A stretch of 42,506 nucleotides of DNA from Gammaproteobacteria bacterium. Its GTDB lineage: Bacteria > Pseudomonadota > Gammaproteobacteria > SG8-11. Both the position numbers and the translations under genes were made by a program. The stretch spans positions 1 through 42,506 of the forward strand of contig JAHECY010000030.1 of NCBI GenBank assembly GCA_024641505.1, written 5' to 3'. Positions 27,263 to 42,506 of the stretch are shown here, in pieces. The notes below the pieces were generated by a model. It was not told the origin of the DNA. It was given only the letters and a program-made list of their open reading frames with translations, and did no database searches. Positions within the stretch are counted from its first letter, which is position 1; each line of letters opens with the position of its first letter.

Positions 27263-28756
27263 TTATGCATTGCCGTCACCACGCGCTTGAGAAATTTTCC
27301 TTATATCCTTACCCTGCCGTTGGCCGCTTCCCTGACTTCCAATCACTACCCCCAAAGATATCAGTATTATCAGATAGCATATATTCGCCGGTATTTGAAA
27401 ATTGAAATCCACCGTGGCATGCGCCAGCAACGCCAACACCGCAGTAAGAATCGCAAACGCGATACTCACCGCAAACGGATCGCGCCGCGCCATTAATGCT
27501 TTGAGCGTATGTTTGCTCATCAGCAACAACACCATGCCGAGCAACAAGCCGCCTAAAAGCCCCTGCTCGGCGACTATTTCGAGAAAGTCATTATGGGCGT
27601 GTTCAAACGTGCCGGTACCGGCCGCGCTGACGCGATACAGTGGAAAAATGCTTTTCCAGGCACCACCTCCCACGCCAAACATCGGATAACGCCCGATTAT
27701 CTTCGCGGATGATCCCCACACTTCAATGCGCAGCTCATCAATACCTTGCTTTGCGATCTTGTTAGTCAGTCCGGCGATCCCGAACCAGGTCACGGACACG
27801 AAAGCCATCACCAGAAACACCGGCAACATGCGCGCTTCATGGCTGTGCGGATTTCTGATCCGGGCGAATCCTCCTACCACGACACCGGCGAACAGCAGCG
27901 CGGCAACACCTCCCCGCGACGTTGTCATCAACAGTACGCCAAACATCAGCGTGGTCATGACTAAAACCAGAAATCTACGTTGCAGCAAGGTATCCGACAC
28001 GTCCCGCAGTTTTTGACGCCATCCCGGCGCCACATATCGGTCTCGCCCCCGGTACCAGTACAGCCCCAACCCCAGGGGCAGGGTCATTTCCAGCAATCCG
28101 GCAAGATGGTTGCGATTGACATACGTGCCGGAAACGCTCCCTGGTGTCGGATTCCAAAGCAACACGCCGTTGACTGCCAACAAACCATAAATTGCTTCCG
28201 CGAAACCGGTGAGAAACAGCACCCACACCAGCATCTTGAGCCGTTGCCGAGATGTCACCAAGGTTAAGGTAAGCAAGCAAATACCGACATAGCTGGCCGC
28301 TTTCAACAGTTCCACCTGTGCCGCGCCACGATCCAGTGCCAGTGGTATTGTCGCCAAGCTTCCCGATGTGTAGTTGTATAAATCATAGCCTGCCGGACCA
28401 AGCACTCTGATCAAGGAAGCTGGCAATGGCAGCGATTGCAAGCCCAAGTACACCAGCCAAACGCCGCTCATCATCAGCGGTAGTTTCGCCATCGCCAGCG
28501 CGTCACTCCAAGGCCGGGGCCGAATCACCATGCTTAACAACATCAGACCGAATATACTCATGACCATGATTTCCAACACGGACCAGGCCCAGGGTCGATT
28601 ACTCCCCAAGGGAATGGGCATACACACGACCAGCACCAGGAACAGCCTGAACGCGACATTCTCAATAACAAGCGCGCCATCACTTGCGCCATCCAATACC
28701 TGGGGTGACGAAGATATTGTTGGGCTGTGATGTATGGAATTCATAACATATGTCAC
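27263..28756 (-). CDS. O-antigen ligase/polymerase family (Wzy_C) membrane protein
   Basis: The 497-residue protein has about a dozen membrane helices and the long periplasmic loop of the Wzy/WaaL family. PLGSNRPWAW near the first helices and GVGGGAWKSIFP with EHAHNDFLEIVAEQGLLG near residues 365-400 are typical. It should polymerise or ligate lipid-linked oligosaccharide at the periplasmic face. In an EPS operon without LPS genes, polymerase is the better guess (inference). The GTG start directly follows the TGA of the VpsP-like gene; an ATG four codons later is an alternative. This tight junction points to coupled translation. Confidence 0.88.
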   Translation of the reverse strand: MTYVMNSIHHSPTISSSPQVLDGASDGALVIENVAFRLFLVLVVCMPIPLGSNRPWAWSVLEIMVMSIFGLMLLSMVIRPRPWSDALAMAKLPLMMSGVWLVYLGLQSLPLPASLIRVLGPAGYDLYNYTSGSLATIPLALDRGAAQVELLKAASYVGICLLTLTLVTSRQRLKMLVWVLFLTGFAEAIYGLLAVNGVLLWNPTPGSVSGTYVNRNHLAGLLEMTLPLGLGLYWYRGRDRYVAPGWRQKLRDVSDTLLQRRFLVLVMTTLMFGVLLMTTSRGGVAALLFAGVVVGGFARIRNPHSHEARMLPVFLVMAFVSVTWFGIAGLTNKIAKQGIDELRIEVWGSSAKIIGRYPMFGVGGGAWKSIFPLYRVSAAGTGTFEHAHNDFLEIVAEQGLLGGLLLGMVLLLMSKHTLKALMARRDPFAVSIAFAILTAVLALLAHATVDFNFQIPANICYLIILISLGVVIGSQGSGQRQGKDIRKISQARGDGNA

Positions 28757-29506
28757 TCATTGTTTTTGATAGGTGGCAAGCAAACCACTAAGCATCACCT
28801 GCTGCCGATCATCAAGCAAGGGTTCGACAACCGCATGACGACGCGTCCGCGCAATCAAATTCAAAGCGGGTCCGGCCTGTATGGCCAGGGCGCGTGTAAT
28901 TTCGTTACGCACCATGGCACGCATATCGTCCGGCAGTTGATCCCAGATGTGCAATCCGCTCCAGATAACCTTGAGCTGCACATCCGCTTCCCAGGGGGCC
29001 AGCACCATGGCCTTTTCCAATGCGTCTAACGCATCCTGATCCAACCCCTGGTTTAGAATCTTGCTGTAGGCATACTGGGCCCACATATAGCCCCAGGCCG
29101 GTCGCAGAGATACTGCATGTTGAAAATAATGTGTCGCCCGTGCGCGCATGGCTTGCGACTCCCGATGCCAAACCGGATAGCGTTGCGCGCCCCATTCATA
29201 GATACGCCCAAGGTCGGCCGCGTAGCCGGCATCGTCGGGATGCAATTGAACGGCGACGGTCATACGTTCGACAGCGCGCCGCCAGTCGCTATCGGTACCC
29301 ACCGCAAGATCCTTCTCCCATTGCGTCATTAAGTTACGCGCACCCAGGGCCTGCAAGTCCGCCCAGCCCCAACGCGCCGCGACCGCAGCCATCAGCAGCA
29401 CCACCAGCAGGCAAAAACCATAAAACACGCGCGTCGTCACCGCGGCCCTGGCGCCGGATGATGCAGTAATCTTCGTTTGAGTTCCAAGTTGCGTGGTAAC
29501 CAACAT
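28757..29506 (-). CDS. VpsP-like membrane-anchored helical-repeat protein of the EPS operon
   Basis: The 249-residue protein has one N-terminal membrane helix (about 27-45, FYGFCLLVVLLMAAVAARWGW) and a periplasmic helical-repeat domain. It includes AVQLHPDDAGYAADLGRIYEW and YFQHAVSLRPAWGYMWAQYAYSK, which look like two or three degenerate TPRs. The place between a PHP phosphatase and a Wzy-like protein matches VpsP-type proteins from Vibrio-like EPS loci; I assign it by layout and context, not by a diagnostic motif. It probably scaffolds the polymerisation complex. Confidence 0.75.
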   Translation of the reverse strand: MLVTTQLGTQTKITASSGARAAVTTRVFYGFCLLVVLLMAAVAARWGWADLQALGARNLMTQWEKDLAVGTDSDWRRAVERMTVAVQLHPDDAGYAADLGRIYEWGAQRYPVWHRESQAMRARATHYFQHAVSLRPAWGYMWAQYAYSKILNQGLDQDALDALEKAMVLAPWEADVQLKVIWSGLHIWDQLPDDMRAMVRNEITRALAIQAGPALNLIARTRRHAVVEPLLDDRQQVMLSGLLATYQKQ

Positions 29507-29577
29507 ATCAAGGTTCCTGAACTATATCCTGAGCAACGCGCCGTCAGCGAAACCGGAATACGGGCTCCGTAAAATTG

Positions 29578-30309
29578 TTATGCGGCTTCCTGGCGCCGCT
29601 CAAACAGACGTTGCGGAAACTCCGTCACCAGGCGCATGGCCGCATCCGCACCGATGATCCGTTGCGCCTGTGCCACGCCCGCCGCCAGATTCGGCGGACG
29701 ATAGCGCAAATTGTGACAATCGCTGGCGAGAAAACTCACCAACCCGGAACGCAGCAAATCTTCGGCGCAATCCTTGGCCGCACGCCCGAACTGACCGAGC
29801 AAACTGCCTGCCGTTACCTGCACCAGACAGCCGTTATCAACGAAATCGCGTATCAACGCCGGCTTGAGCTGTAACTCCCGATTTCTTTCCGGATGTACAA
29901 TAATGGGCTGGATTTCGCGCCGCACCAACCAGCGAATAACATTGACGCTGCCAACGGGCACTGCATTGTGCGGCAACTCCAGCAATAACGCTCGCCTGCC
30001 TTCCCAACTCCCCAACCACAGCATGTCGTCACGTTGCACCGTATCCAACAATTGCGGACACAAACGAAATTCAGCGGCGAGGCGCAGGGTCACAGGAATA
30101 TTGCAGTCGGCAATGTTCACGACAAACGCGTCGAATTCACGTCGCACATCCGCGCAGGTGTTGGCAAAATGATCCGGATGGATATGTGGCGTGAGTATCT
30201 GGGTAGTGACGCCATCCCGGCAAGCCAGTCCGAGCATGTTCACGGCTTGCGACAAATCTCCAGCGCCATCATCGATGGCCGGCAAAATATGACTATGACA
30301 ATCAATCAT
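29578..30309 (-). CDS. CpsB/YwqE-type PHP-domain protein-tyrosine phosphatase
   Basis: The 243-residue protein is a metal-dependent PHP phosphatase that removes phosphate from the tyrosine kinase of polysaccharide assembly. Metal-binding motifs are in order: MIDCHSHILPAIDDGA, LTPHIHPDHF, LELPHN, IIVHPERN and FLASDCHN. The ATG at 30309 starts the fold exactly as in CpsB; a GTG three codons earlier is less likely. It follows the Wzc-type kinase gene by 63 bases, so it most likely acts on that kinase's tyrosine cluster. This PHP type is better known from Gram-positive bacteria than the low-molecular-weight Wzb usual in enterobacteria. Confidence 0.93.
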   Translation of the reverse strand: MIDCHSHILPAIDDGAGDLSQAVNMLGLACRDGVTTQILTPHIHPDHFANTCADVRREFDAFVVNIADCNIPVTLRLAAEFRLCPQLLDTVQRDDMLWLGSWEGRRALLLELPHNAVPVGSVNVIRWLVRREIQPIIVHPERNRELQLKPALIRDFVDNGCLVQVTAGSLLGQFGRAAKDCAEDLLRSGLVSFLASDCHNLRYRPPNLAAGVAQAQRIIGADAAMRLVTEFPQRLFERRQEAA

Positions 30310-30372
30310 TGCCGGCACCCCACGAGTGCAACGCTACGCCTTGATCGCGTACCTGCAGCACAACACACCGGG

Positions 30373-32610
30373 TCATGCGGGCACCTCGTCACCGTAATAT
30401 TTCCCATAGGCTTCACCGTAGTTTGACTTGTAGTAACGGTTGCCATAGTAGGCTTTCAGTTTGCGCATATCGACCATGGACAGCACCGCACCCAAAGGCT
30501 CGATGTTATTGCTGCGCAGACGCTTTACCATCTCCTCTGCCAGAGGATAGGTGGTGACGTCAAAACGCACGCTTAGTATCACCTTATCGACGAGATTTCC
30601 CAGCACCAGGGCATCGCTGACCGGCAACATCGGCGGCGTGTCGAAAATGATATAGTCAAACTCCTGTTTCAGCTTCTCGATTTGCTGCCGGAACCTGTTA
30701 GACGACAACAGCTCCAGGGGATTGGGCGGGATCTGTCCGGTGGTCATAATGTACAGTGTCGCGCATTCATCATCCTGACGCAGCGCCTGCTCCAGCTCCA
30801 CGCTGCCGGCGATCCATTCCGACAATCCGGGTCTCTGCTCCCAGCCTAACACGCGTCGCAACGCCGGTCTGCGCATGTCGGCATCCACCAGCAGGGTGCG
30901 TCCCATGTGCGCGAATGACAACGCCAGGTTGGAGGATAAAGTAGTCTTTCCTTCCGACGGTTGCGATGACGTCACTACCAGGGTTTGCACCGGATCGTCG
31001 AGGTCGGAAAACAGAATTCCTGTACGTATGTGATTGACGGCTTCGGCGAACACCGAACGCGGCTCATGAAAAACGAATCGCTCCGGCATGTGTGCGCCCA
31101 GTTGCGCCGCATCCAATTGAACCAATTCACTGAGCACTGGCAACAACAGTTTTTCCTCGATATCAGCGCCTTTCTTAAACGTATTGTCCAAATTCGAGCG
31201 CAATAACGCGAGGCCGATTCCCAGGCTCAAGCCGAATACCAGCCCGAGGAATAGAATACTACCCCGGTTCGGCTTGAAGGGTAACACCGGCACCGCCGCC
31301 GAATCGATGACACGCACATTCAGTTGATCCGTCTCCCCGGCGCCGTCGATTTCCTTGAAGCGCGCCATGAAAGTCTCATAGATCTGCCGGTTGGATTCCA
31401 CCTCACGTTCCAATTTCGCCTGTTGAAACCCTTTGCCCGCCACGTTTTGCATGTCCTGCTGCAACTCGTCGATCTGTCGCTGGGCTTCCAATTCCTGAGC
31501 CTTGGCCGCCTCAAAATCCTTGAAAATCACTTCCGCTACCCGGTTGATCTCCAGAACCAACCGCCGTTCCGTTTCGTCACGATCCGCTTTCGCGGCGATC
31601 ATGCGTGGATGTCGATCCCCGTAACGTTCGCCGAGTTCGGACAGTTTTCGTTCCAGTCGCCCAAACTCCTCGAACAACCGCTCCACCAATGAATTGTTCG
31701 ACAGCGGCACCAACTCCTCGTAGCCCTTACCCGCCAACTTCATTTCATGTACCTGCCGGTAACGAATTTCCGCCTCAGCGCGCGCCGCTTGAGATTTTAC
31801 CAATAGGGACGCGAGATTGGCCATTTTGGTTTCCAGGATACGCCGCCGGTTACTGGAGTCCACCATGGATTCCCGATCCTGAAAAGCCTGTAACTGGCGC
31901 TCGGAATTTTCCAACTGCGATTTCAGATTTTGCAGACGCGCGCTCAACCAGGACGTGGCTTCTTTAACCATGGTTAAACGGGATTCCAGGCCGTACTGCG
32001 AATAGGCGTGGGTGACATTGTTGACGATGCGGGCCGCGAGCGCGGGATTCGGGTCTTCGTATTCAACGACGATAATCTGACTCTTCTGACCGCCTACGAT
32101 ATTGAGATGTTCCTGCAGTCGCTGGGTCGCCATTTTATTCCGGGTCGCCGGTTCAGTGTCTACCGCGTCTTCAGGCAACCAGTCACGCCATGTTTCCGGC
32201 CACAAATCCCATTGATAGGATTGTGCGGGATTTCGACCTCTCAAAAACCATTCGTTCGACGCCAAGCTCAGGTTTTGCACCACGGTTTCGGCAATCGCCC
32301 GGCTGCCGAGAATTTCGTATTGAGTTTCGTAAAAAAGAGTTAACGGTGCCGGCCCTTCCAGGGCCTGAATATTCACGAATTTCGGTTGCGCCGGCTCCAC
32401 CAATAAAGTGGCGGTGGCCTTATAGATTGGTGTCGTGGTAAACGCATAACTGATACCAATCAACACACCGGCCAATGTCAGACCTACAACGCTCCACTTG
32501 TAGCGTATAATAATCCGCCAGTAGTCAAGTACGGTCAGCTCCGGCGGCGTCACCGACGGCGGCTTCGCGTACTGTTTTCTAAGCTCTGAAATCGGCACCG
32601 CTTTATTCAT
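30373..32610 (-). CDS. Wzc-type chain-length determinant and autophosphorylating tyrosine kinase
   Basis: The 745-residue inner-membrane protein controls polysaccharide length. A Wzz domain begins at about residue 25 with helix 1 near 39-57. A long periplasmic coiled coil (about 215-420) follows, then the GNVR-type turn before helix 2 near 455-475. The cytoplasmic BY-kinase has Walker A SSQPSEGKTTL, Walker A' TLLVDADMRRP and Walker B YIIFDTPP. The last 25 residues carry eight tyrosines (AYYGNRYYKSNYGEAYGKYY), the usual autophosphorylation cluster. It is downstream of the export gene and upstream of its probable phosphatase. Confidence 0.95.
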   Translation of the reverse strand: MNKAVPISELRKQYAKPPSVTPPELTVLDYWRIIIRYKWSVVGLTLAGVLIGISYAFTTTPIYKATATLLVEPAQPKFVNIQALEGPAPLTLFYETQYEILGSRAIAETVVQNLSLASNEWFLRGRNPAQSYQWDLWPETWRDWLPEDAVDTEPATRNKMATQRLQEHLNIVGGQKSQIIVVEYEDPNPALAARIVNNVTHAYSQYGLESRLTMVKEATSWLSARLQNLKSQLENSERQLQAFQDRESMVDSSNRRRILETKMANLASLLVKSQAARAEAEIRYRQVHEMKLAGKGYEELVPLSNNSLVERLFEEFGRLERKLSELGERYGDRHPRMIAAKADRDETERRLVLEINRVAEVIFKDFEAAKAQELEAQRQIDELQQDMQNVAGKGFQQAKLEREVESNRQIYETFMARFKEIDGAGETDQLNVRVIDSAAVPVLPFKPNRGSILFLGLVFGLSLGIGLALLRSNLDNTFKKGADIEEKLLLPVLSELVQLDAAQLGAHMPERFVFHEPRSVFAEAVNHIRTGILFSDLDDPVQTLVVTSSQPSEGKTTLSSNLALSFAHMGRTLLVDADMRRPALRRVLGWEQRPGLSEWIAGSVELEQALRQDDECATLYIMTTGQIPPNPLELLSSNRFRQQIEKLKQEFDYIIFDTPPMLPVSDALVLGNLVDKVILSVRFDVTTYPLAEEMVKRLRSNNIEPLGAVLSMVDMRKLKAYYGNRYYKSNYGEAYGKYYGDEVPA

Positions 32611-32647
32611 TTACTGACGCACCTTGCTTTCATGATCGATCAACACG

Positions 32648-33301
32648 CTAAAAGAAACTTTCCCCGACATTAAGAATGTCGCCAGGCCCCATGCCGGCTT
32701 CCATCTTTACTTGCACTTCCATACCATCCTGGTTTTCCTGAATCATATTCAATTTACTCTCGGATCCGCGCACTGTCAGGCCGCCGGCGATAGCGATTGC
32801 CTTCCGCACCGTCAAACCCACTATATAGTTGTACCCGCCGGGATTTCTCACCTGTCCGGTGACATAAAACATACGGTACTCCAGCACCGATACCGTCACC
32901 TTGGGTTTTTTCAGATAGCCATCCAACAGCATATCGGTAATCTTGCGCTCGACCTCTCCGATACCGAGATCGACGATGACGATTTCGCCGAGCAATGGCA
33001 TAGAAATTTTTCCGCCACTGCCCACACGCACCTTCGGCAGGCTCATATCATCTTCACCGTACACCTGAACCGACAGCAAATCACCGGCATTGATGCGATA
33101 AGCGTCCGCACTCCAGGCCGGGCCGGTCAGCAACACCATGAAGATCACGCCGACGAACAGCAGTCGATGTTGCCGCCTTTCGCGCCACACAGCCTGCTGG
33201 AAAGCCAGCGCCCCAATGGCCAAGGTACCAACCGCCGCGAATCCGAGCGAAGCTTTCAGGATATTTTTAGATTTCGCGGACCGCGGCGCCATGAAACTCA
33301 T
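32648..33301 (-). CDS. Wza-like polysaccharide export protein (SLBB)
   Basis: The export domain begins at about residue 66 (AYRINAGDLLSVQVYGEDDMS) and contains GGKISMPLLGEI and DGYLKKPKVTVSV, followed by one SLBB domain (FYVTGQVRNPGGYNYIVGLTVRKAIAIAGGL). Wza-type proteins form the outer-membrane or periplasmic exit channel. At 217 residues it is shorter than Wza and has no lipobox, so it may rely on the neighbouring barrel protein. The N-terminus is odd: two hydrophobic stretches (14-34 and 46-62) are split by WRERRQHR. The second ends GPAWSA/DAY and alone makes a good signal peptide if the GTG at 33190 is the true start. The gene begins eight bases after the barrel gene. Confidence 0.88.
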   Translation of the reverse strand: MSFMAPRSAKSKNILKASLGFAAVGTLAIGALAFQQAVWRERRQHRLLFVGVIFMVLLTGPAWSADAYRINAGDLLSVQVYGEDDMSLPKVRVGSGGKISMPLLGEIVIVDLGIGEVERKITDMLLDGYLKKPKVTVSVLEYRMFYVTGQVRNPGGYNYIVGLTVRKAIAIAGGLTVRGSESKLNMIQENQDGMEVQVKMEAGMGPGDILNVGESFF

Positions 33302-33309
33302 TTTTGTCG

Positions 33310-34506
33310 CTACTTGGAAACATAGGTTCCGGTTAACATCAGCACATTGCTGGTAAAATCGGCTCCCGCCAGCGATGATGACTTGCTGCCATAGGTATAG
33401 TTGAACTCGAGCCGCATATGCTGGGTCATACCGTAGCCCCCACCCATCGTTACATTCGTCAACTCGTCGCTGCGACCGTCGCTGAATTCATCGTTCTGCG
33501 CGCCAATGCCGGCGTCAAGCGCAAACAGGGAAGAAAAATCATGGTGCCAGGCGATATTCAGCATATTGGAAATATAGTAGCTTGATGTTACCTCGGTACT
33601 TTCCCGTGCTTGCCGAGTCAAACCCAGCTTGAATCGATCTATTGGCTGCGGTGCCCAATCTACGGATCCTTCAGCGGTAAAACCGCTGAAATCCTCCAAA
33701 GAATTCCCATAATAATCCGTGGTCCCCTGGAGATCTTTCGACAACATACCCAGGCGCACAACACCGGTGGTAATACCGGTAAAATCCCAACGTGAGCCGA
33801 GCATATAGGAAAATTCGGTGCTATCCCGGTCCGAACTGGGTGCATCGGTATAGGTAATATTTCTTGAACGCATTTCCAGTAACCAGGAACTGCGCGCCGT
33901 CATATTATAATATGCCGTCAAATAGAGAGTGCCTGTATCGCGGTTGCGTGACGCCTGGTTGTTATTGGTAAATTCCCGACCGATACCTTCATACTTCAAT
34001 TGCACCTGGGCCTGACTGGTACGCCGCCCGTATACGACATCCAGGTTGTAGGCTAATTCTTCCCAGGTATCCGGCTCCAGACCCGGCGTCATACTGGCTC
34101 CGGATGCGCCGCGAGAATCATGGGACCATGTGTACTTTGCGCCCAGGTTCATACTGAGTTTGGGTGAAAGATCCATCAAGAAATCGGCATTTACCTTACT
34201 GTCATTGTAGTTCTCGTCGGACTTGTCACTGTAAGCCGCATATGCGCCTGTATAACCTAAATCCAGCCGATGCTTGTTGAACACACTCATGTGCGTCAAC
34301 GACGGCGTCAAAACAAAAGCCAGGTCGCTGATTTGATTGCTTTCAGTCCGGTAAATATTGTCATCGGACAGCACATGCAGCGACAACGTGCCAGCAAATC
34401 CAGGCTCCAAAGTGTCGGGAGTTTCCGCATGCGCACCGGCAACGAACCAAAGAATCATCGGCATTAACACCTGCCAGCGTTTCAATCCTGTGGGTAAATT
34501 AAACAT
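33310..34506 (-). CDS. Outer-membrane beta-barrel protein of the EPS operon
   Basis: The 398-residue protein has a signal peptide (ending GAHA/ETPD) and then alternating amphipathic strands throughout, with many Tyr and Asp/Asn turn residues. Examples are HRLDLGYTGAYAAYSD, KLSMNLGAKYTWSH and MRLEFNYTYGSKSS. It resembles the putative beta-barrel porin family found beside Wza/Wzc genes, such as EpsL-like proteins. It ends TGTYVSK rather than with the usual aromatic residue. It is a likely outer-membrane partner of the export protein, either the secretion pore or its support. Confidence 0.85.
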   Translation of the reverse strand: MFNLPTGLKRWQVLMPMILWFVAGAHAETPDTLEPGFAGTLSLHVLSDDNIYRTESNQISDLAFVLTPSLTHMSVFNKHRLDLGYTGAYAAYSDKSDENYNDSKVNADFLMDLSPKLSMNLGAKYTWSHDSRGASGASMTPGLEPDTWEELAYNLDVVYGRRTSQAQVQLKYEGIGREFTNNNQASRNRDTGTLYLTAYYNMTARSSWLLEMRSRNITYTDAPSSDRDSTEFSYMLGSRWDFTGITTGVVRLGMLSKDLQGTTDYYGNSLEDFSGFTAEGSVDWAPQPIDRFKLGLTRQARESTEVTSSYYISNMLNIAWHHDFSSLFALDAGIGAQNDEFSDGRSDELTNVTMGGGYGMTQHMRLEFNYTYGSKSSSLAGADFTSNVLMLTGTYVSK

Positions 34507-34521
34507 AGGGCCCCCATACGT

Positions 34522-35262
34522 TCATGAGCCACTGACCACCACGCCACCACCATCACCACCGCCGGGAATTTGAACCGGCGCTATCGTACTATTGCTCGAT
34601 GGAGACTGGCCGCCGGGTATGGCACTGGAAGGCACCTGGCCGGATGCGCTGGCCTGGGTGACGATTTGCGGATCAATGTTCAAACTTATCGCCTGTTGCT
34701 CGATTTGGGTGGCGAATTGTGGCGCAGTGGCCACCGCCGCGGTAAGCACATTGCGAACATAAGTTTCGTCACGATTGGCGGCGATCGCCCCGGCAATAAT
34801 CAGCGACGTCTGATTGGGTTGCGCGCGGATCGCGGTGGCGACGATATCGCCCACCATATATGCCGGATCCAATACCGCGGATATCGCCCCTTTAACGATG
34901 CGATCGGCATTTTCCGGGGTGGAATTAACCGCCAGGGTAACGATGGCCAACGCCATGTTGGGTAGTATTCCCACCACGGTATTAACAATTTGTTCGGATA
35001 GCCAAGGTGCGATCTGGAGTGCGATTTGGGTGATTTGTTGTGTACGCTCCGGTTGTACCGCCAGCGCCGCACTGAGAATAATCACAATATCGTCGGGATA
35101 GCTGATGATTGATCGTTGCAGTTCGCTTTCGAAGGATTCGGCGGAACTGAATAGTTGTTGATAATGACGCTGGTGCTCATAGCGCTCGTCAGCGCCGGAC
35201 GATAACGCCGGCAACGCAAGAAACGCTATTATAATAATTGATTTAATCCTGCCCGGTTTCAC
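34522..35262 (-). CDS. Secreted helical-repeat protein with Gly-rich tail, unknown function
   Basis: I do not recognise this 246-residue protein. A signal peptide (MKPGRIKSIIIIAFLALPALSSGA) is followed by an Ala/Ile/Val-rich helical domain with loose repeats of about 35 residues. Examples are ALAVQPERTQQITQIALQIAP, TLAVNSTPENADRIVKGAIS, AIRAQPNQTSLIIAGAI and AVATAPQFATQIEQQAI. A Ser/Pro/Gln linker leads to GGGDGGGVVVSGS. The GTG start at 35262 has AAGGAG nine bases upstream. It is the second gene of the EPS operon, 16 bases before the barrel gene, so a periplasmic or matrix role in export is likely (inference). Confidence 0.75.
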   Translation of the reverse strand: MKPGRIKSIIIIAFLALPALSSGADERYEHQRHYQQLFSSAESFESELQRSIISYPDDIVIILSAALAVQPERTQQITQIALQIAPWLSEQIVNTVVGILPNMALAIVTLAVNSTPENADRIVKGAISAVLDPAYMVGDIVATAIRAQPNQTSLIIAGAIAANRDETYVRNVLTAAVATAPQFATQIEQQAISLNIDPQIVTQASASGQVPSSAIPGGQSPSSNSTIAPVQIPGGGDGGGVVVSGS

Positions 35263-35445
35263 CTGTATGCTCCTTCGCCATCGACAATTTGTTAAAATTT
35301 ACAAATCGTCAAAATTCGAAGCACAAACTATGCCGGGGTATTTCTCGCAAATATAATCAGGGATTGCCTCTTCAGACGCATGTCTGCAACGAACCGGCCG
35401 CTGCTGAAAGCAAGCAATGCCTTTGATCAAACAGGATATCGCGAC

Positions 35446-36096
35446 TTAGCGCAAACGACTCCACAACGCGGCCCAGTGGCCAATACGCAGTGCCGGTCCC
35501 ACCAGATCATTCCGGGATGCCGCGCGCGTAATCCACAGGGAATCGCCGTTGAATCCATAGACCGGCTCCAGATCATGACGTTGCTCCAGCGGCAGAATCG
35601 CGGCCGTCGTATTGTCCAACACCCACCAAACACTTTGGCGCAGCACCGCCAATACCATGTGCGGCCGGGAAGTTTCCCGCTGCTTGACGAATAGCAAGCG
35701 CAAATGGTTATCGTCGACACCGAGCACGCGTAAGGTGAAATACTTGGCTATTGCCAGATCTTCACAGTCGCCATGACCGGCGCGAAACAGCTCCTCCGGT
35801 GTCGCCCAATAGTCATTCTCGCCCCACTGCACAAGATCTTCGCGATACGGAATTTTATTGATGTAGCTGTTGACCCAATCCAATTGCGCCGGCAGCGATT
35901 CGGACTTGAGGTGTTGCACCAGAGCATACCAGTCCAGAGTAATACGCCGGGTCGCGACATCGTCCTGCAATGACAGTCGCTGCATGCTTTGCTGGAACCA
36001 CCGGATTTCATGATCAGCCGCCGTGGCCATGCCCCAGCAGGCGCTGGCGACCAACAAGATCATGCCTCGAATCGGGAATTTCCTCCACTGCAACAT
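35446..36096 (-). CDS. Transglutaminase-like cysteine protease (BTLCP family)
   Basis: The 216-residue exported protein has a signal peptide (MLQWRKFPIRG then a hydrophobic core to MATAA). It carries the bacterial transglutaminase-like cysteine proteinase triad: Cys in GHGDCEDLAIAKYF, His in RPHMVLAV and Asp in VLDNTT. LapG, the periplasmic protease controlled by c-di-GMP through LapD, belongs to this family, but no LapD or LapA is in the window. Other members sit in EPS operons, as here, with unknown substrates. I chose the ATG at 36096 over an earlier one at 36135 because it opens the signal peptide. It is the first gene of the operon. Confidence 0.88.
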   Translation of the reverse strand: MLQWRKFPIRGMILLVASACWGMATAADHEIRWFQQSMQRLSLQDDVATRRITLDWYALVQHLKSESLPAQLDWVNSYINKIPYREDLVQWGENDYWATPEELFRAGHGDCEDLAIAKYFTLRVLGVDDNHLRLLFVKQRETSRPHMVLAVLRQSVWWVLDNTTAAILPLEQRHDLEPVYGFNGDSLWITRAASRNDLVGPALRIGHWAALWSRLR

Positions 36097-36442
36097 CAAG
36101 CACCCACCACGATATTCACCTATTGCCATCAACACCCGGGCACCACCCGAATCACCAGGCAGGAACCAGACTGTTGTTCCCTGCCCGGTTGTCGGCCCCT
36201 GCGCGTTTGGTCACTTATCGCAAGCGTTAACATTGATGGCGGCACCGCAAACATTGGTCAACTGAAAATGGCGGTGTGGCCCAGGACACTTGCACCGGGT
36301 CATCCAACGGCAGTGACGGCGTCGCCGCGGGCTGCGCACCTCGCGAAGATGCCAAGCATAACAATATCCGCAATTATTAAGGAGTATTAGATCGGAGGTA
36401 ATGCAAAAAAAACCGCAGCACTTTACATAACACAACGCTTTT
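36097..36442. other. Region upstream of the EPS operon
   Basis: These 346 bases between the Nudix gene and the first EPS gene, both on the minus strand, probably contain the EPS promoter. I could not place -35/-10 or sigma-54 boxes. A hairpin at 36158-36185 (GGCAGGAAC with GTTCCCTGCC, one bulged base) lies in the expected leader. A run of eight T on the minus strand near 36404-36411 might end the Nudix transcript, but I see no clear stem before it. Confidence 0.4.
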
Positions 36443-38423: not shown

Positions 38424-41891
<3,468 letters not shown>

Positions 41892-42228
41892 ACACACCTT
41901 CCCAACTATACCCGAATAGTACAACTGTAAAACTCGTGAGCCTTGTGAACCCACGCCCCCTGACACTGGTGTTGTGTACGACGAGGACCTCAGCCCGACT
42001 TTTTATCCATTATTTTAATAGGCGAGTCCGTTACTAAGGATATTACAAGTGGTTAACAGAATGGAATGCTTTTTATATTAAGAAATTATTATTGGTTATA
42101 AACAAACCAGTTTTGGCATGTTAAGTCGGTTTCTAGTAACTACTCCTTATATATATACAGTGGATCGATTATTCATCTCATTGTTTAGTGTTATTGTGAT
42201 TTCACCAGGTGAATGGCGATAGCCGGTA
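41892..42228. other. AT-rich region upstream of the cytochrome gene
   Basis: About 340 bases lie between the cytochrome start and the hairpin that ends the next gene. They are clearly more AT-rich than the coding DNA around them and probably hold the cytochrome promoter. TAAAAT near 42014-42019 (minus strand) is a possible -10 box without a well-placed -35. I found no c-di-GMP riboswitch core and no gene. Confidence 0.4.
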
Positions 42229-42252
42229 AGGCTGCTCTGAAAAGAGCAGCCT
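42229..42252 (-). terminator. Terminator hairpin of the Gly-tail gene
   Basis: AGGCTGCTCT and AGAGCAGCCT form a perfect 10-bp stem around a four-base loop. The hairpin overlaps the last bases of the TAG stop codon on the minus strand. The following sequence has only a short T-rich start, so it may be Rho-assisted. It separates this gene from the cytochrome transcript. Confidence 0.65.
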
Positions 42253-42506
42253 ACATGCCACCGCCACCACCTGTGCCACCACCGCCAGTGCCACCACCGC
42301 CAGTGCCACCGCCGCCGGTACCGCCACCGCCGCCGGTACCGCCACCGCCGCCGGTACCGCCACCGCCGCCGGTACCGCCACCGCCCGTGCCGCCACCACC
42401 TGTGCCGCCACCACCTGTGCCGCCACCGCCAGTACCACCGCCGCCCGTGCCACCGCCGCCCGTGCCACCGCCGCCCGTGCCACCACCGCCAGTACCACCG
42501 CCGCCG
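42251..42506 (-). CDS. 3' end of a gene encoding a (GGGGT)n C-terminal tail (cut by window edge)
   Basis: In the frame closed by the TAG at 42253-42251, the minus strand is open to the right edge. It encodes only Gly and Thr in pentapeptides GGGGT, with fifteen Thr in 84 residues, then a final GGGGG-Met. The Thr codons vary (ACA, ACT, ACC, ACG) and Gly uses both GGC and GGT, so the peptide is kept while DNA has drifted, which supports a real protein. The rest of the gene lies outside the window, so its function is unknown. The Gly tail ending in Met recalls the end of the neighbouring cytochrome (GGMGGM). A 98-codon Ala/Val frame on the same strand is a shadow. Confidence 0.7.
   Translation of the reverse strand, partial: GGGGTGGGGTGGGGTGGGGTGGGGTGGGGTGGGGTGGGGTGGGGTGGGGGTGGGGGTGGGGGTGGGGTGGGGTGGGGTGGGGGM

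Follow-up and report, generated by a model that had tools for sequence, protein, structure and literature searches.

The glycine-rich repeat at the right edge of the window (the whole stretch of DNA analyzed here, 42,506 bases) is, with near certainty, the end of gene B, which its sequence marks as a giant c-type cytochrome, and three further giant multihaem genes of the same genome carry comparable tails that end in Met. Our preferred reading, to which we assign a probability of about 0.55, is that these proteins combine an electron-conducting haem chain at or outside the outer membrane with a tail that serves the extracellular cytochrome as an extended, soluble tether.

The window is the entire contig C45 of a 4.78-Mb source genome in 222 contigs (G000), and it ends inside the repeat, so that the window edge is also the contig edge. 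On the minus strand, positions 42254-42505 form a single open frame of 84 residues consisting of Gly and Thr alone save for the final Met. Read 5' to 3', it comprises nine GGGGT units running in from the contig edge (42371..42505), three GGGGGT units (42317..42370), three more GGGGT units (42272..42316) and the Met-tipped end GGGGGM (42254..42271), followed by the stop codon TAG of this Gly-tailed giant cytochrome (42251..42253). A sequence-only reading had described a pure GGGGT tail with a final Met; the length of 84 residues and the Met held, whereas the purity did not, given 12 GGGGT units alongside three GGGGGT units and GGGGGM. The mixed synonymous codons it had pointed out are there: the 12 GGGGT units come in ten DNA versions, and Thr is encoded by each of its four codons. 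As all three minus-strand frames are open across the repeat, openness of the frame proves nothing. Pairwise comparison of the GGGGT units (66 comparisons), however, gave 0, 0 and 165 differences at codon positions 1, 2 and 3, respectively, with all five third-position columns variable, a pattern that singles out the Gly frame as the coding one. The GGGGT peptide is thus under purifying selection, as the same reading had proposed. The three GGGGGT units are identical 18-bp copies and probably reflect a recent tandem duplication. A perfect 9-bp stem, GGCTGCTCT-TTTC-AGAGCAGCC (42230..42251, minus strand), lies at the stop codon; this hairpin has no T-run and a terminator scan gave no call, but it may possibly mark the transcript end.

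Searching the genome with the repeat located a pure GGGGT frame at just one other contig end, the left edge of contig C216 (3-94, minus strand), in the complementary orientation that a join requires. Over 22 bp the two ends overlap exactly and in phase; the last base of C45 is mismatched. In UBA6920, a genome of the same genus, the C-terminal part of a gene B homologue lies directly upstream of a homologue of gene A, the neighbouring cytochrome gene in the window, in the same orientation and within a single contig (L034, which seems to be the one also present as G001:C157), and a phosphatase-like gene then follows the A homologue, as in the window. From repeat overlap and gene order together, it is near certain that C216 holds the remainder of gene B (L016 1-4384, minus strand). 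An assembly artefact, in which the C45 tail would be foreign to the C216 gene, might be suspected where both contigs break within a repeat and overlap by so little, with a mismatch at the end, but the single matching contig end and the UBA6920 gene order make it very improbable. Two other contigs were rejected as continuations: the repeat on C60 reads GGTSSGGMSGG and what lies on that contig is the C-terminal end of a gene rather than an N-terminal part, and the gene on C131 has a complete Gly/Met tail of its own.

The C216 part of gene B encodes 1461 residues with 51 CxxCH motifs, bringing the protein to at least about 1,540 residues. Its N-terminus, MLRRAKWVLIGMVCLSYLSIVHG-A, resembles a signal peptide as judged by eye, and it matches Pfam Cytochrome_C7 (PF14522) with 207.7 bits (E 1.5e-62, cut-off 24.8). 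The earlier suggestion of another multihaem protein upstream, to be sought through CxxCH motifs and a signal peptide to the right of the window, was thereby supported; the upstream part turned out to be neither non-coding nor an unrelated cytoplasmic protein. Past the last haem domain, PAPAP and GGGGM blocks run into the GGGGT repeat. C216 contributes a further 165 tail residues, so the true tail exceeds 84 residues, and any length given for it is a lower bound, since the contig breaks inside the repeat.

Four giant multihaem genes, B among them, follow one another on one strand. Gene A (38424..41966, minus strand) encodes 1180 amino acids with 43 CxxCH motifs, a signal-peptide-like N-terminus and a Gly/Met tail of the form G12-M-GGG-M-G9-M-GG-M (38427..38516, minus strand). 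Gene C (C216 4550-10765) has 79 motifs and gene D (C131, to 23807; L020 3888-13805, plus strand) has 129 in about 3,300 residues, within an ORF of 3306 codons from stop to stop, and likewise ends in a Gly/Met tail. B and A are separated by about 285 bp and C and B by 165 bp, while a gene on the opposite strand separates D and C; likeness of this gene to the one beside the G040 cytochromes was considered and rejected, as the two share no similarity. The adjacency of C216 and C131, and with it the order A-B-C-D, follows from a 72-bp repeat that occurs at full length only at the right ends of these two contigs; its first ~22 bp belong to an element spread through the genome, with a total of 84 matches. 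A short palindromic element, GGTGCGTAATACGCACC... (L016 13578-13796 and many other sites in the genome), often occurs in opposite-facing pairs and is part of the 72-bp tandem repeat between C and D. About 2 kb beyond gene A, the window also holds what its translations suggest is an exopolysaccharide-like cluster (27263-36135, minus strand), with O-antigen-ligase-like, chain-length/tyrosine-kinase-like and export-like proteins.

All four genes share one layout: a signal-peptide-like start, tandem multihaem repeats, a conserved last domain (61-85% identity to that of A), a Pro/Ala linker, a Gly-rich stretch and a terminal Met. The three proteins scanned (A, B and C) matched Cytochrome_C7, cytochrome c3 and DmsE-type decahaem repeats. 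Against the DmsE model TIGR03508 (cut-off 192.2 bits), A (153) and B (181) stayed below the cut-off and only C exceeded it (247.6). Against the OmcA/MtrC model TIGR03507 (cut-off 209.3), A scored 22.8 bits and B and C were not listed, and the sole solved relative returned by a profile search was an MtrC. Cytochromes of the DmsE/MtrA type (TIGR03508, PF14522 and MtrC/MtrF domains II-IV, PF22113) resemble A-D in their signal-peptide-like start and in a CxxCH motif every ~23-28 residues, but A-D have 4 to 13 times more haem motifs than the decahaem proteins and add the Pro/Gly/Met tail. The giant cytochromes of ANME archaea are likewise single polypeptides with tens of haem motifs, at most 86 in the data set concerned against 129 in gene D (PMC9012536). 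In ANME types A and B, S-layer domains are present together with a C-terminal transmembrane helix (PMC9012536); A-D show neither feature and finish in a soluble Gly tail. A large survey lists gene neighbourhoods that exceed a hundred haem motifs (PMC11475568). Giant cytochromes as such are known, and we claim no record for gene D.

The sequence-only reading had also suggested a family of Gly-tailed proteins. Three further multihaem genes do carry Gly/Met tails, each of the ends of A, C and D consisting of a Pro/Ala linker and Gly/Met stretches with Met last, but the GGGGT sequence itself is not conserved. In the UBA6920 homologue of B, the GGGGT part is swapped for about 300 residues of PAPAPxPSP, followed by SPGGGSGGGGGM and the stop codon; in the public contig, this Pro-rich stretch comes after a gap of two N bases, across which it has to be linked to the haem part. 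The Gly-rich end there is still Met-final and contains one Met only. UBA6920-A ends in ...AMGGGGGGTMGGGGGGGMGM (A homologue, ...GGGGGGGMGM before the stop), a gammaproteobacterium from Hainich in PAPAAGGGGGGGMGGGGGGGM before the stop, and G002 has the tail PAPAPGGGGMGGGGMGGGGGGGGMG. In another family the end is PPPPAAGGGGGGHGGGH before the stop, with His in place of Met; two G040 proteins end in PPPPPAAGG-GGGHGGGH, and GGGGC ends occur in L129 and L148. A tail is missing altogether from G001:C156 and from the majority of conduit cytochromes in other families. Because relatives vary in sequence and some end without it, we regard the tail as optional; where it is present, these sequences indicate that composition and tip are kept. 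By the same comparison, the kept property is not GGGGT but a flexible, low-complexity arm with a metal-ligand tip, Met here and His elsewhere.

Similar Gly-rich segments were seen outside these cytochromes. A gene end broken by the contig edge in the same genome (C60:3-281, plus strand) carries a GGTSSGGMSGGTTSGGG repeat and likewise finishes in SGGGGM; no upstream part was located for it. GGGMGGG inserts occur in multicopper-oxidase-like and polysaccharide-export-like proteins of other genomes (L125, L127, L143, L147 and L169), their functions being read from translations. There are also free-standing ORFs of about 25-60 codons that encode almost nothing but Gly and Met and end in GGGM, GGM or GGGGM, ten out of ten with a Shine-Dalgarno-like site. 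Two lie in G000 (C79:22690-22830 and C164:8549-8650, minus strand) and the others at L153, L154, L155, L156, L157, L161, L166 and L167, one of them cut by a sequence gap. Several sit between or beside an MsbA-like ABC transporter and a fused MFS/spermidine-synthase-like gene, and two lie near an asparagine-synthase-like gene; no known family was identified for them. At two contig ends of G000, the right end of C204 (54778-54829) and the left end of C106 (1-80), the break falls within or immediately behind a Gly-rich ORF. The genes seen around Gly-Met ORFs at other sites, the ABC transporter and the spermidine-synthase-like gene, are found on these contig ends as well. Judging by these ends, a single gene (MGGGGGGGGGAHEAA...DGGGGGGGGGGGGGGM) was probably split there by the assembly. 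A phylum-wide search for a ribosome site plus Gly-Met ORF returned 9 of 398 genomes, but matches beyond G000 often looked out of frame or like chance, and we do not treat this as a count.

Gene context bears on where the tailed proteins may reside. In the Hainich genome (L035), a tailed cytochrome with 47 CxxCH motifs comes after a membrane protein, a 21-haem cytochrome and a TPR/beta-barrel-like protein, and the same set lies beside a PKD-like, Gly/Met-ended cytochrome on contig C200 of G000 (L017). Between the sets of different genomes, identity is 45% for the 21-haem cytochrome, 24-30% for the barrel and 31% for the membrane protein (about 340 aa). The set recurs at L017, L116, L035 and L117/L118, in each case with a tailed relative next to the multihaem protein and the barrel-like gene; its barrel, 21-haem and giant-cytochrome members were also found in G001 and G040, and relatives of the barrel in 46 of 369 genomes of the class. 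"Barrel" is read here from an aromatic C-terminus and the layout rather than from a model match: the L035 protein matched no porin model in Pfam and gave weak TPR matches only. On these grounds the recurrent set is a probable outer-membrane electron conduit, and the tailed relatives are, by genome context, probably located at the outer surface. Next to A-D themselves, no barrel gene was seen. G000 also encodes two MtrB/PioB porins, indicating that the genome is equipped for extracellular electron transfer. The idea that the tail is a constant part of the 21-haem/barrel conduit was rejected, as most of the conduit cytochromes in other families lack one.

Under the tether reading, the haem part would form a long electron-conducting chain at or beyond the outer membrane, and the tail would be an extended, soluble, non-membrane arm, probably polyproline-II-like, a conformation borrowed from GroEL. 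Such an arm could give reach, so that the cytochrome stays attached to, or touches, partners outside the cell; selection would then keep composition, low complexity and a soft-ligand tip. More tentatively, the terminal Met or His might make a specific contact, either by metal or haem coordination or by hydrophobic docking. The Gly/Met tails of GroEL adopt polyproline II, as do their Gly-poor, Pro-rich chloroplast counterparts (PMC12571646). That both tail types share this conformation fits the Gly-to-Pro swap between gene B and its UBA6920 homologue and favours an extended tether. GroEL's C-terminal Gly-Gly-Met tail resembles the present ones in being soluble, in its Gly/Met composition and in the interchange of Gly-rich and Pro-rich forms between homologues (PMC12571646, PMC11978752); ours, in contrast, belong to probably secreted non-chaperonins, are much longer and favour Thr over Met in the repeat, so the comparison concerns only how such a tail might work. 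What counts against a tether is that tails are dispensable in the wider family.

Three other readings of the tail compete with this one. It might be a Gly-rich carrier of Met and His ligands that binds copper or iron, or that gives an axial ligand to a neighbour's haem and so chains the giants together. The tip and the spaced residues are indeed Met or His, at times Cys, multicopper-oxidase-like proteins also contain GGGMGGG, and a neighbouring molecule supplies one of the 12 axial His ligands in OmcS filaments (PMC6584659). By analogy with this sharing of His between molecules, the Met/His tip could serve as a ligand, OmcS being a possible precedent in which no Gly tail is involved. The long GGGGT part of gene B, however, has no Met except at its tip, and Thr in its place makes metal binding unlikely along most of the tail; the UBA6920 homologue, too, retains a single Met in its Gly end. 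We consider a ligand arm rather doubtful as the main function.

A C-terminal sorting or secretion signal, recognized for export or surface retention and perhaps removed, would account for the Gly-rich, Met-last ends that several genes share here, one of them the unrelated-looking gene on C60 (GGTSSGGMSGG...SGGGGM). Yet the tail, ending in ...TGGGGGM, has no hydrophobic transmembrane helix and no basic residue, unlike the GlyGly-CTERM and PEP-CTERM layouts, no NCBIfam CTERM model matched A, the C216 part of B or C, and several homologues of the same family are tail-less, which leaves such a signal improbable. We give equally little credit to a neutral origin, in which an unstable GGN/ACN tract grew by slippage and was tolerated at the protein end. 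The identical 18-bp copies and the PAPAP replacement in the same-genus homologue are what slippage might produce, but the diversity of DNA versions among the GGGGT units, with differences confined to third positions, and the similar, Met-final tails found in other genera as well as on each of the paralogues A-D argue against it.

A bolder reading is that Gly-rich, Met/His-tipped arms act as an assembly module, the tip docking on or ligating a haem of the next cytochrome. A-D, with 302 haem motifs between them, would then build a cross-linked conductive mesh that needs neither a pilus nor a polymerising fold, and the free Gly-Met peptides of the same genomes would be part of this system; we regard this as a long shot. 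With 43, 51, 79 and 129 haem motifs in adjacent genes, this relative of an uncultured proteobacterium represents an extreme case of extracellular electron transport. A literature search for Gly/Met or Gly/His tails on cytochromes turned up no report of the recurring linker, Gly stretch and Met/His tip among the papers covered; most matches dealt with GroEL and Hsp40. Should the tail prove to be a tether or a ligand arm, this would be a simple and testable explanation of how giant soluble cytochromes are kept together and in contact outside the cell.
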